Shown: piece after piece, positions 3,306-17,503 of the stretch
How the letters are laid out: the number at the start of each line of letters is the position of its first letter
Numbering within the stretch: the stretch's first letter is position 1
Origin: an uncultured Eubacteriales bacterium
Lineage (GTDB): Bacteria; Bacillota; Clostridia; Lachnospirales; Lachnospiraceae
Reading direction: 5' to 3'
NCBI GenBank assembly: GCA_900316115.1
Contig: ONBN01000015.1
Location: 1 to 40,681, forward strand
Length of the DNA stretch: 40,681 bases
The notes under the pieces: generated by a model
What the model saw: only the letters and a program-made list of their open reading frames with translations
Databases searched by the model: none
Told to the model about the DNA's origin: nothing
Program-made: the position numbers and the translations under genes

Positions 3306-4793
3306 GTGGATGAACCTATTTTGAAAATGCAGGGAATTGAAAAAAGGTTTCCAGGGGTTATAGCACTTCATAATGCTTCATTGAATGTACGGAAAGGTCA
3401 GATCATGGCTTTGCTGGGAGAAAACGGAGCTGGTAAAAGTACATTAATGAAGGTCTTGACAGGTGTTTATAAAAGAGATGGCGGAACCATTGTCTACAAA
3501 GGAAAGCAGGTGGAATACCAGAATACCAGGCAGGCCATGGACGACGGGATCGCCATTATCCATCAGGAGCTTACCCTGGTTCCAAAGATGACGATCTACG
3601 AAAATATTTTTATGGGAAGTGAAAAGACCAAGGGCCTGGGAATAGCAGACAAAAAGTACATGATACAGAAAAGCCGGGAACTGCTTCATACATTGAATAT
3701 GGATCTGAATCCGGAAAAAAGAATTGAAACATTGTCCATTGCCCAACAGCAGATGGTTGAAATCGCAAAAGTGCTTTTATATGATGCTCAGGTGATCGTT
3801 ATGGACGAGCCCACAGATGTGCTTCCGGATGAAGAAGTGGAAAGCCTGTTCCGTGTACTTGAGGATCTGAAAAAAAGAGGCAAGGCCATTATTTATATCA
3901 GCCACCGTCTGAAAGAGATCTTCCAGATCTGTGACATGGTAACAGTGATGAGGGACGGAGAATTTATCGGGGAGAAACCGGTGAGTGAGATCACCAATGA
4001 GTCACTAGTAAGCATGATGGTGGGAAGAAAGCTGGATGAACAGTTTCCGCATGTGGAAGTACAAAAGGGTGAAGAAGTTCTGAAGGTGGAGCAGATTTCC
4101 AACGAATATGTGCATAACATTTCTCTTTCCGTACATGCCGGTGAAATCGTAGGGATCGTAGGGCTGGTAGGAGCAGGCAGGACGGAACTTGCAAAGACCA
4201 TATACGGCTGTTATCCATATCAGGAAGGCCAGGTCAGTGTGAAGAACCGGAAAGTGCCAAAGGGTTCTATCAAACAGGCGATCCATTCAGGAATCTATTA
4301 CATGACAGAGGACAGGAAAAGAGACGGTCTTGTGATGCTTCTGGATGTGCGGACGAATATGACCCTGTCTTCCCTGAAAAAAATCTCTCGCTGTTTTACG
4401 GTACTGAAAAAAACAGAGAAAGAAGCTGCCGAAGATTTCAGGCAGAGAACCAGGGTAAAAACCCCGTCCATTTTTCAGCTTGTACGGAACCTGTCAGGTG
4501 GCAACCAGCAGAAGGTGATCCTTGCAAAGGCACTGATGACAGAGCCGGATGTACTGATCCTGGACGAACCTACAAGAGGGATTGATGTAGGGGCAAAAAA
4601 AGAAATATACAATCTGATCAATGAACTGAAAGACAAGAATAAGGCAATTGTGATCATTTCCTCAGAGATGCCGGAGATCCTGGGAATGAGTGACCGGATC
4701 ATCGTTATGAACGAAGGCTGTATCAAAGGGGAATTGTCCAGGCAGGAAGCTTCTCAGGAAAAGATCATGCATATGATCCTGGATCAGGCATGA
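3306..4793 (+). CDS. Sugar ABC transporter, duplicated ATP-binding subunit (probably rhamnose)
   Basis: RbsA/MglA-type ATPase of 495 residues with two ATP-binding domains. It powers uptake of a monosaccharide through the permease encoded next. Domain 1 has Walker A GENGAGKST (about residue 40), signature LSIAQQQM (about 145) and Walker B VIVMDEPTD (about 165). Domain 2 has the degenerate GLVGAGRTE, signature LSGGNQQK and LILDEPTRG. GTG at 3306 is chosen because GGAGGA lies 6 bp upstream; an in-frame ATG at 3267 has no such site and gives a non-homologous N-terminus. The D-loop of domain 1 reads EPTDVLPDEE rather than the usual EPTDALTD. L-rhamnose specificity is inferred from the downstream catabolic genes. 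Confidence 0.9.
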   Translation: MDEPILKMQGIEKRFPGVIALHNASLNVRKGQIMALLGENGAGKSTLMKVLTGVYKRDGGTIVYKGKQVEYQNTRQAMDDGIAIIHQELTLVPKMTIYENIFMGSEKTKGLGIADKKYMIQKSRELLHTLNMDLNPEKRIETLSIAQQQMVEIAKVLLYDAQVIVMDEPTDVLPDEEVESLFRVLEDLKKRGKAIIYISHRLKEIFQICDMVTVMRDGEFIGEKPVSEITNESLVSMMVGRKLDEQFPHVEVQKGEEVLKVEQISNEYVHNISLSVHAGEIVGIVGLVGAGRTELAKTIYGCYPYQEGQVSVKNRKVPKGSIKQAIHSGIYYMTEDRKRDGLVMLLDVRTNMTLSSLKKISRCFTVLKKTEKEAAEDFRQRTRVKTPSIFQLVRNLSGGNQQKVILAKALMTEPDVLILDEPTRGIDVGAKKEIYNLINELKDKNKAIVIISSEMPEILGMSDRIIVMNEGCIKGELSRQEASQEKIMHMILDQA

Positions 4794-13545: not shown

Positions 13546-13712
13546 ATTATAACAATAAACCAGGCAATAGCAATAAAAATGGCATAAACATTTAGGAAGA
13601 TATCGTAAAATAGTAATTAAGTGATCCTGATTTTTATGTACAATTTGTGAATTTTAGCTTGAAAAAGTAAGACATATGTGATAACCTATATTTCAATGTG
13701 TTTATACGCAGC

Positions 13713-13752
13713 ACGAATGACCGCCACAGCCGTACAAACGGGGCGGATTCGT
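13713..13752 (+). ncRNA. Stem-loop immediately 5' of the glycine riboswitch
   Basis: ACGAAT (13713-13718) pairs with ATTCGT (13747-13752) and CCGCC (13721-13725) with GGCGG (13742-13746). The position, just before the aptamer, fits the so-called ghost aptamer stem of singlet glycine riboswitches. That interpretation is an inference. Confidence 0.5.
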
Positions 13753-13756
13753 AAAC

Positions 13757-13844
13757 TCAGGAGAGCCTCTTCAAAAAAATCTAGGGAAGAGCGCCGAAGG
13801 TGTACGCAGCAGGAATGCTGTCAATCTCTCAGGCAAAAGGATGG
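13757..13844 (+). ncRNA. Glycine riboswitch (single aptamer)
   Basis: The glycine aptamer consensus is visible: GGAGAG at the 5' side of P1, CGCCGAAGG, a GCAGCA-GGAA-TGCTGT hairpin, and CTCTCAGGCAAAAGGA at the 3' end pairing with the first element. An internal stem (GCCTCTTC/GGAAGAGC) fits P2. Only one full aptamer is present. GGAGG of the downstream ribosome binding site overlaps the 3' boundary and no terminator is visible, which suggests control of translation. It precedes an AGCS-family symporter, a known target class of glycine riboswitches. Confidence 0.9.
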
Positions 13845-13854
13845 AGGAAAAATT

Positions 13855-15276
13855 ATGTTCACACAAATCTTCACACAAATCAACAACTTTATCACATGGT
13901 TTGACGGAGTCGTATGGGGACTTCCGCTGATCATTCTGATCCTGATCACAGGATTTCTTTTAACCGTTCGGTTAGGTGTTCTACAGGTAAGGCATTTGGG
14001 AAAAGCCCTGAAATTCATGGTAAAAAATGAAGAGGGCGGCGAAGGTGAAGTTACCAGCTTTGGTGCACTTTGTACTGCTTTGTCTGCAACCATCGGTACA
14101 GGAAACATTGTAGGTGTTGCTACAGCCATTGCAGCCGGAGGACCGGGAGCATTGTTTTGGATGATCGTGGCCGCATTCTTTGGAATGGCTACGAAATATG
14201 CAGAAGGACTGCTGGCTATTAAATACCGTACCATTGACAAAGAAGGCCATGTGCTTGGCGGTCCTTTCTATTACATAGAAAATGGTATGGGCAGACAGTG
14301 GAGATGGCTTGCCAAGATTTTTGCATTTTTCGGAGCAGGTGTAGGGCTGTTTGGTATCGGTACCTTTACTCAGGTAAATGGTATTGCGTCTGCTGTAAAG
14401 AATTTCTTTGATCCGGATACAGTACATACTGTTTTAATCCTGGGAAGAAACTATTCCTGGGCAACAGTGATCGCATGTCTGATCCTTACTGTATGTGTAG
14501 GTCTGGTAGTACTTGGCGGTATCAAACGTATTGCAAGTGTATCACAGATCATTGTGCCATTTATGGCAATCTTATATGTGGCGCTTGCACTGATCATTGT
14601 TATTACGAATATTACAGCTGTACCGGCTGCCATTGTTCAGATCGTAAAAACGGCCTTTTCAGGAAGTGCCCTGGCAGGTGGTGTGATGGGAACAATGGTT
14701 GTGGCTATGCAGAAAGGTATTGCAAGAGGTATCTTTTCAAACGAATCCGGTCTTGGAAGTGCACCCATCGCAGCAGCCGCAGCACAGACAAAAGAGCCTG
14801 TACGTCAGGGACTGGTATCTATGACTGGTACATTTATTGACACCATTGTTATCTGTACAATGACAGGACTTGCCATTGTAATGACAGGAACCTGGAATAC
14901 AGGACTTGAAGGTGTGGAGATCACAACTGCAGCCTTCCAGAAGGGACTTCCGTTCCCACCACAGGTCGCATCTTTTGCACTGATGGTGTGCCTGGTATTC
15001 TTTGCATTTACCACTATTCTTGGATGGGATTACTACGGAGAGCGGTGTCTGGAATATTTATTCAACAGGAACCAGGGCGCGGTAAAGACTTACCGTATCT
15101 TTTATATCATCTGCGTATTTATCGGACCGTATATGACGGTTGCAGCAGTATGGAACATTGCTGATATTTTCAATGCGCTGATGGCATTCCCCAACCTGAT
15201 CGCCCTGCTTGCATTAAGTGGCGTGGTAGTAAGGGAAACAAAGGATTTCTTCAAACGTCATAAAAATTACGAATAA
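13855..15276 (+). CDS. Na+/alanine-glycine symporter, AGCS family
   Basis: Membrane transporter of 473 residues of the alanine/glycine:cation symporter family, importing a small neutral amino acid with Na+. Family signatures are ALSATIGTGNIVGVATAIAAGG (about residues 75-95), FWMIVAAFFGMATKYAEG, FSNESGLGSAPIAAAA and the FTTILGWDYYGER segment. About ten hydrophobic segments are visible. ATG 13855 is chosen, 7 bp after GGAGG; the frame stays open upstream to 13678, but that part is the riboswitch. Control by a glycine riboswitch implies that glycine is the substrate or that excess glycine signals export or use. A strong hairpin terminator follows. Confidence 0.93.
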   Translation: MFTQIFTQINNFITWFDGVVWGLPLIILILITGFLLTVRLGVLQVRHLGKALKFMVKNEEGGEGEVTSFGALCTALSATIGTGNIVGVATAIAAGGPGALFWMIVAAFFGMATKYAEGLLAIKYRTIDKEGHVLGGPFYYIENGMGRQWRWLAKIFAFFGAGVGLFGIGTFTQVNGIASAVKNFFDPDTVHTVLILGRNYSWATVIACLILTVCVGLVVLGGIKRIASVSQIIVPFMAILYVALALIIVITNITAVPAAIVQIVKTAFSGSALAGGVMGTMVVAMQKGIARGIFSNESGLGSAPIAAAAAQTKEPVRQGLVSMTGTFIDTIVICTMTGLAIVMTGTWNTGLEGVEITTAAFQKGLPFPPQVASFALMVCLVFFAFTTILGWDYYGERCLEYLFNRNQGAVKTYRIFYIICVFIGPYMTVAAVWNIADIFNALMAFPNLIALLALSGVVVRETKDFFKRHKNYE

Positions 15277-17196: not shown

Positions 17197-17468
17197 AAAA
17201 AAATAAGAGCCATCCGTCTTTACAACCGATGACTCTTAGGAATGCTCACTGTCCAATGGAATGTACCTCGCTTTCATGATCTAATAAAACAATTCAGGTA
17301 TTTCGTTTAAGTTCTTGGTGGACCGTACCTTCCTTTCTTAGAATATAGGAAAATCATTTCTTATTTCGGTGGTCTGTACCTCACTTTCCTGGATTTTATT
17401 TGAGAAATAATTTTATGTTTCTGGGGGAATCACTCCTTTTCTTTTATTATGTTTCCCTTTTGTTTTAT
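17197..17468 (-). ncRNA. Candidate small RNA or attenuator leader with three repeats
   Basis: Read on the minus strand, this stretch has its own promoter, about 270 nt of RNA and an intrinsic terminator. It contains three imperfect 23-nt repeats (17368-17390, 17317-17339, 17255-17277) with the common core GAAAG.(G/A)AGGTAC followed by CCA. The terminator lies 57 bp before the PdaA start codon, so this is either an independent small RNA or the leader of that gene. In the same relative frame the repeats could encode R-K-V-R-Y-R-P-P, K-K-G-R-Y-G-P-P and M-K-A-R-Y-I-P-L, each followed soon by a stop. No good ribosome binding site precedes them. I do not recognise a named RNA family. Confidence 0.6.
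17205..17237 (-). terminator. Terminator of the candidate small RNA/leader
   Basis: On the minus strand AAGAGTCATC (17237-17228) pairs with GATGGCTCTT (17214-17205), including one G-U pair, with a 13-nt loop, and is followed by seven T residues (17203-17197). Confidence 0.85.
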
Positions 17469-17474
17469 GAACTT

Positions 17475-17503
17475 ACCATAACAGAAAAATCATCATATGT
17501 CAA
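17475..17503 (-). promoter_or_regulatory. Promoter of the candidate small RNA/leader
   Basis: On the minus strand a perfect TTGACA (17503-17498) is followed by a 17-bp spacer and TATGGT (17480-17475). The predicted RNA start is near 17468. The remaining stretch 17504-17690 is very AT-rich and shows no gene. Confidence 0.7.

Follow-up and report, generated by a model that had tools for sequence, protein, structure and literature searches.

The minus strand of a 40,681-nt stretch of DNA from an uncultured Eubacteriales bacterium of the Lachnospiraceae (contig ONBN01000015.1 of assembly GCA_900316115.1; the whole stretch is called the window below) carries, from position 17503 to 17197, a complete predicted transcription unit made up of a promoter, four copies of a short repeat, a six-codon open reading frame (ORF) and a terminator. 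The repeat is a Shine-Dalgarno sequence (SD) extended toward the 3' end of 16S ribosomal RNA (rRNA), and many of its copies, here called start-less, have no start codon at the position where one would be expected. We consider that the product, which we call the array RNA, is best read as a messenger RNA (mRNA)-like decoy that docks 30S ribosomal subunits without productive initiation, a reading to which we give about even chances of being right. The elements of the unit in the window are the following.

17475–17503, minus strand: promoter TTGACA-N17-TATGGT, with TTGACA at 17503–17498, a 17-nt spacer and TATGGT at 17480–17475
17197–17468, minus strand: predicted RNA of about 270 nt, delimited from the promoter and the terminator, its start being put about 7 nt past the −10
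17412–17440, minus strand: copy 1, start-less and divergent, AAAAGGAGUGAUUCCCCCAGAAACAUAAA, recognized by eye against the first copies of relatives
17361–17389, minus strand: copy 2, a start-less extended SD, GGAAAGUGAGGUACAGACCACCGAAAUAA, from the repeat scan
17307–17337, minus strand: copy 3, a start-less extended SD, GAAAGGAAGGUACGGUCCACCAAGAACUUAA, from the repeat scan
17257–17275, minus strand: copy 4, the SD of the terminal mini-ORF, GAAAGCGAGGUACAUUCCA, from the repeat scan
17236–17256, minus strand: terminal six-codon ORF, UUG GAC AGU GAG CAU UCC UAA (MDSEHS), from its in-frame start and stop
17197–17237, minus strand: intrinsic terminator (fold −17.4 kcal/mol, z −6.4, seven T)

An earlier note on this DNA had described the minus-strand promoter, three repeats (GAAAG..AGGTAC....CC) spaced by 51 and 62 nt, and the terminator, and all of these are present as it stated. 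The three repeats are real, but the divergent first copy (17440–17412) had been overlooked; it falls under the threshold of the repeat scan and was placed by the position that first copies take after the promoter in relatives. The note was likewise correct that no long ORF is present, but it passed over ORFs of 3 to 7 codons, such as the one in the window, whose stop codon has its final two bases within the terminator stem. Taken by itself the promoter match in the window is at chance level (3 found versus 3.2 expected from the shuffled region), the terminator hairpin (17237–17197) was not picked up by the automated terminator rule, and the whole RNA is not unusually structured (folding z −0.99); the case for the RNA therefore rests on comparison.

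For this comparison 69 distinct loci were retained from 110. They hold 280 copies of the repeat, 1 to 11 each, versus 3 in letter-reversed sequence. A promoter scoring at least 10/12 lies upstream in all 69, versus 20 of 69 letter-reversed controls, and at a score of at least 11/12 the counts are 63 loci versus 2 controls. The copies fall into two classes. In the start-less class (197 of 280) the triplet at the start position is CCA in 109 copies, CCG in 75, ACA in 8, and some other non-start triplet in the rest, while the start-bearing class (83 of 280) has AUG in 51 and UUG in 32. Where a locus contains both, the start-less copies stand first and the start-bearing copies last (39 of 41 mixed loci).

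The 211 intervals between neighboring copies have a minimum of 48 nt, and 107 of them fall at 50–54 nt; the repeat scan itself forbade only copies within 20 nt of each other. As the footprint of a ribosome on mRNA is given as about 34–38 nt (PMC8708949), the spacing is ribosome-sized, that is, wide enough for one ribosome per copy. Six long versions from the Anaerobutyricum / Eubacterium group (loci L067, L098, L102, L107, L125 and L132) have a repeat-free stretch that parts the early from the last copies, the distance being 273–317 nt copy to copy. A different short repeat, around AAGAAGGAGGTAATCCCTCAAAGGGATACCATTATGGCC and partly read as N, lies upstream of the RNA promoter in L055.

The resemblance of the AGGTAC core to an SD, remarked on in the earlier note, is borne out by coupled complementarity to the 3' end of 16S rRNA, which was taken from a member of the genus (L194, GGATCACCTCCTTTCT). 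The 151 strict start-less copies paired with this tail at a mean of −13.6 kcal/mol, compared with −11.9 ± 0.13 after column shuffling, which keeps the composition at each position and breaks the combinations (z −13.8); with one copy per locus (n = 69) z was −11.5, and for the last copies it was −6.8. None of sixty permuted tails gave a z as extreme as the true tail (most extreme −10.7, median +0.7). Most of the coupling lies with the terminal UUUCU of the 16S rRNA, z being −6.4 without it and −15.3 with it, versus −5.2 for a generic CCUCC strand. Furthermore, the GAAAG extension and an unbroken GGAGG core substitute for each other among the start-less copies, 75 having the extension only, 61 the core only, 6 both and 9 neither (151 copies; p = 3e-25), and the same was found with one copy per locus (41, 21, 5 and 2, respectively; p = 5e-11). 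Even allowing for inflation by related sequences, it is hard to account for this specificity for the true 16S tail in another way. Pairing through an extended SD has been documented in Staphylococcus aureus (PMC13009471).

Two other uses of the motif were considered and dropped. A hairpin within each repeat (GGAGGU-loop-ACCACC) is disfavored by variation at −2/−3 while the CC stays fixed, and by copies 2, 3 and 4 of the window, whose folds are no better than those of shuffles (z 0.10, 1.11 and 0.57). The motif as a target site shared by mRNAs genome-wide finds no support either, the counts outside the locus being at about the level of the reversed-pattern control (21 genomes; 6 genomes) and, with the locus allowed for, about or below it. 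The suggestion that the repeats are seed sites for mRNAs or small RNAs is less likely than rRNA pairing given the coupling to the 16S 3' end, although no search for small RNAs was made.

Usable start codons require a U, and the start-less copies nearly lack one where it would be needed. At +3 to +18 after GGTA the T fraction of the 151 strict start-less copies is 0.018, versus 0.36 before and 0.33 after this window, and 16 of the 151 contain NTG or ATH in one frame or another, versus 135 for a window of the same length farther downstream. With a start region nearly free of U, a 30S subunit could therefore dock at such a site and not initiate, and the U-free stretch is what one would expect a landing site barred from initiating to look like. 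Translation of the start-less copies was rejected; neither AUG nor UUG stands at their start position, and their in-frame stops are looser (within 4 codons in 151 of 197 copies, versus 41 of 42 minigenes).

The start-bearing copies present the opposite picture, in that 83 of 83 reach an in-frame stop within 7 codons. Forty of them have the form start-NNN-NNN-TAA, and with an SD, a start, a few codons and a stop these are minigenes. In the 43 that have no stop at codon 3, a stop occurs within seven codons in frame 0 in all 43, versus 13 and 28 in the other frames.

A search from the terminator side began with 109 loci and, less 8 without a terminator and 1 duplicate, covered 100. A short ORF ending at the terminator stem was found in 83 of these, a count that is not blind since the ORF was picked by its best SD; among those with weak SDs a few may have been chosen wrongly. 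The stem begins 2–6 nt past the first base of the stop codon in 70 of these 83 loci. The stops are TAA (58), TGA (13) and TAG (12), and the starts ATG (41), TTG (40) and GTG (2). The 83 loci encode 64 distinct peptides, for example MDNEQ, MDEIV, MIEPVN and MTEEPTK; another comes from a 13-codon ORF, MDEIFSLEDEYSV, found with a close relative in L251–L253 (genus g18), loci whose earlier copies are odd as well (GGTACACTCCAAAGG). Asp or Glu occupies 118 of the 331 codons of the distinct peptides, versus 31.6 ± 5.0 in within-ORF shuffles, and Lys or Arg only 14, versus 66 ± 6. Frames +1 and +2 of the same ORFs hold 6 and 16 Asp/Glu codons, and 32 and 41 stops. Fifty-nine of the 64 peptides have an acidic residue as their second or third. 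The enrichment in acidic and depletion in basic residues, relative to shuffles and to the other frames, points to selection at the amino-acid level on an ORF of mostly 5–7 codons.

Within the genus, a DNA search (E ≤ 1e-6) found the array RNA in 36 of 64 genomes, and in 26 of the 34 good ones. A scan of named genomes for the two-copy pattern returned 67 stretches, of which three were set aside on reading (L104, Chromatiales; L123, Citrobacter; L128, Akkermansiaceae); the rest lie in Lachnospiraceae genera or in bins labeled loosely Clostridia, Eubacteriales or 'bacterium', and carriers include Blautia wexlerae, B. luti, B. massiliensis, Anaerobutyricum hallii, Diplocloster and Eubacterium sp. 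14-2. Within the window's family, a sequence-only model of a single start-less copy (R1) matched 166 of 396 genomes (E ≤ 0.001), and matches came from 114 of the 245 genera. In the order 113 of 393 genomes matched (E ≤ 0.01), two of these matches (E 0.0078 and 0.0097) falling outside the family; in the class 16 of 392 did, all 16 within the family. The repeats noted at the outset are kept in relatives, and it is this conservation that lifts the array RNA above chance. Several genomes carry two or three separate array loci at different places (L226/L227 in genome G323, L228–L230 in G359, L233–L235 in G401). Carriage by viruses was dropped as an idea, the exact two-copy pattern having been found 0 times in viral contigs.

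The earlier note could match the RNA to no known class, and at the gathering cut-off Rfam 15 likewise placed nothing over it in the whole window; at E ≤ 5 the RNA segment drew two snoRNA models only, far under the cut-off, and no array was matched in 12 related loci. The sole match among those loci was a T-box leader (RF00230, 99.2 bits) at 3577–3817 (+) of L260, downstream of the array locus. In the window the sole match was a glycine riboswitch (RF00504, 47.7 bits) at 13748–13854 (+), where it falls within the 5' part of a sodium:alanine symporter ORF as called (13678–15276). The Pfam family PF01235 matches this ORF from residue 115 onward, and translation of the symporter probably begins past the riboswitch.

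The earlier note had offered two views of the unit, a free small RNA or an attenuator leader of pdaA, and the genomic context favors the first. Downstream of the 83 loci with a terminal ORF the genes fall into 42 sequence groups, and they are co-directional in 62, opposite in 19 and not found in 2. A gene of the pdaA group, whose member in the window matches the Pfam polysaccharide deacetylase family (PF01522), follows in only 18 of the 83 loci, or 22 of 69 in the tally of the 69-locus set. In that tally, whose group names were assigned by eye, an enolase-like gene lies upstream on the opposite strand in 27 of 69 loci, and the enolase of the window is confirmed by Pfam. A conserved co-directional downstream gene, as would be expected of minigenes that regulate in cis, was not found. 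Given the 42 downstream groups, the 19 of 81 neighbors on the opposite strand and the background level of the motif elsewhere, we take the array for a free RNA, and a role as leader of pdaA is not supported.

The features computed here are the 16S-coupled complementarity, the absence of start codons, the frames of the mini-ORFs, the acidic enrichment, the ribosome-sized spacing and the family-wide conservation, and they suggest the following scheme. The strongly promoted, mostly unstructured RNA would form a row of ribosome landing sites, each repeat being able to pair, as an extended SD, with the 3' end of 16S rRNA. At the 5' copies a 30S subunit would dock at a start-less site and be unable to initiate; some 3' copies would offer an AUG with a near-immediate stop, a three-codon minigene at most; and the last copy would usually serve the acidic ORF of 5–7 codons, with its stop on or adjoining the terminator. 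Docked ribosomes may also shield the RNA from nucleases in the fashion of a STAB-SD, an element that blocks the 5' exonuclease RNase J1; as only the terminal peptide is encoded behind the array, however, stabilizing SDs alone would protect just the RNA itself. Given a row of docking sites with very short translation only, the RNA would most likely act in trans, engaging 30S subunits non-productively as a decoy, reservoir or titrator of free ribosomes. More speculatively, the acidic terminal peptide may pause or destabilize its ribosome, for early acidic residues pause or drop ribosomes in E. coli, an effect relieved by EttA, and MgtL bears a destabilizing EPDP motif (PMC11282234), which the terminal peptides MIEP and MEPG echo. 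That the RNA is a dedicated ribosome-sequestering array, docking 30S subunits so as to lower or buffer the free pool, with the acidic mini-ORF parking or destabilizing one 70S ribosome at the 3' end, is a possibility we advance tentatively.

Several observations weigh against the decoy. The order of the copies is broken in 2 of the 41 mixed loci (L120 and L126). The SDs of the minigene copies are slightly weaker than their column-shuffled counterparts (z +2.6) and so are not maximal, and one of the 60 permuted tails reached a mean energy below that of the true one (−14.1 versus −13.6 kcal/mol), its z nonetheless being the less extreme. Because copies from one locus or from related loci lack independence, the z-scores and p-values overstate significance. 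The rule used failed to yield a terminal ORF in 17 of the 100 loci, and no terminator was found in 8 of 109. R1 left 230 of the 396 family genomes unmatched in a search that loses weak matches, and the array RNA is therefore not universal in the family. Nor does 16S pairing account for a near-invariant CC-R-CC (CC-A-CC) block: the CC at +8/+9 after GGTA is invariant in all three copy classes tabulated for the 69-locus set, and the CC at +11/+12 is present in 95–98% of the start-less copies. Avoidance of U alone would permit A or G, so the block is stronger than such avoidance requires, which suggests a further partner. Finally, expression of the array RNA is deduced from promoters, and its binding of 30S subunits is predicted, as are its action in trans and the physiological condition in which it would act.

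The strongest rival, which we nevertheless think doubtful, sees the RNA as a messenger for the acidic micropeptide at its end, the start-less SDs as a multiplied STAB-SD, and the peptide or its paused ribosome as the functional part. It would make sense of a terminal ORF in 83 of 100 loci with its stop so close to the stem (70 of 83), and of the 118 acidic and 14 basic codons among 331 (31.6 and 66 in shuffles), and a STAB-SD is indeed described as a 5' stabilizer acting through 30S binding (PMC4113751). On the other hand, apart from an early acidic residue the 64 peptides from 83 loci share little, an ORF of 5 codons hardly seems to call for as many as 11 copies, and the minigene copies are left unaccounted for.

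It is unlikely that the RNA works as RosA or CsrB do, by sponging a C-rich small RNA or an RNA-binding protein, even though its G-rich motif is repeated, its gene is free-standing, the CC-A-CC block looks like the recognition site of something, and RosA of Bacillus subtilis does sponge the C-rich RoxS and FsrA (PMC8216469). Coupling is far stronger with the UUUCU end of the 16S rRNA (z −15.3) than with a generic CCUCC strand (−5.2), the copies that were folded form hairpins no better than shuffles do, copies never closer than 48 nt are far apart for sites of a protein or small RNA, and a sponge would leave the in-frame start and stop codons unaccounted for. Among the matches listed for 6 genomes, at up to 2 mismatches, no complementary locus stood out; looser partners were not sought.

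A cis attenuator, in which a ribosome paused on the acidic ORF covers the terminator and permits read-through into the downstream gene (pdaA in the window), seems to us improbable. The stop codon does lie on or adjoin the terminator stem, but Firmicutes often site terminators at stop codons, transcription outrunning translation. Ribosomes can also pause or drop off at acidic residues early in an ORF (EttA and MgtL; PMC11282234) and the downstream gene is co-directional in 62 of 81 loci, yet the 42 downstream groups and the 19 of 81 neighbors on the opposite strand speak against this reading. A chance or relic cluster of non-functional repeats, for which one could cite the chance-level result of the generic promoter scan, is scarcely credible, being already contradicted by conservation in 114 of 245 family genera, by the coupled substitutions and by the kept frames.

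Among known RNAs, 6S RNA, a structured decoy for RNA polymerase, provides the closest analogy to a decoy of 30S subunits, as a decoy for a core machine; the analogy is functional only, the machine being a different one and 6S RNA being structured, and we claim no relation in sequence. Sponges of the CsrB/RsmZ type have GGA sites in hairpin loops, closely spaced and in many copies. Like them, the array repeats a G-rich site several times within one RNA, but it has no hairpin signal and its copies are at least 48 nt apart, which is not the arrangement of a CsrA-sequestering RNA. The STAB-SD of cry3A mRNA is an SD-like 5' site that interacts with the 16S 3' end and does not direct initiation (PMC4113751), and array copies are, in the same way, complementary to that end without a start codon. 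However, a STAB-SD is one site in the leader of a protein-coding mRNA, whereas the array has 1–11 copies per locus in a free RNA and is not the 5' untranslated region of a protein-coding mRNA, its terminator following the mini-ORF and the downstream genes varying.

The minigenes of axe-txe, LEE1 and LEE4 esp are ORFs of two to six codons, and for a six-codon mini-ORF it is reported that bound ribosomes protect the transcript (PMC8708949). The array similarly has very short ORFs with an SD, but those minigenes act in cis on a downstream gene, whereas those of the array follow one another in an RNA closed by a terminator. RosA (PMC8216469) is likewise a stand-alone RNA with G-rich regions; it targets C-rich small RNAs, whereas the complementarity of the array reaches the terminal UUUCU of the 16S rRNA and its repeats carry start and stop logic. 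A generic CCUCC strand fits the array worse than the 16S tail does, no search for small RNAs having been made. A free array of start-less ribosome sites falls outside single elements such as the STAB-SD, minigenes acting in cis, and sponges of small RNAs or proteins, and no account of such an RNA was found among the literature matches listed, whose coverage lacks most subscription journals.

If the decoy reading is true, a dominant family of gut bacteria would control the availability of its ribosomes, or its capacity for translation start, by means of an RNA that imitates many start regions simultaneously. This would be a new layer of translation control and the translational counterpart of 6S RNA, and strong SDs in intergenic DNA would then not need to mark genes. 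Even if the role in trans should fail, there would remain a recurring ORF of 5–7 codons, ending on its own terminator and apparently under selection at the amino-acid level, which would be an unusually short gene.
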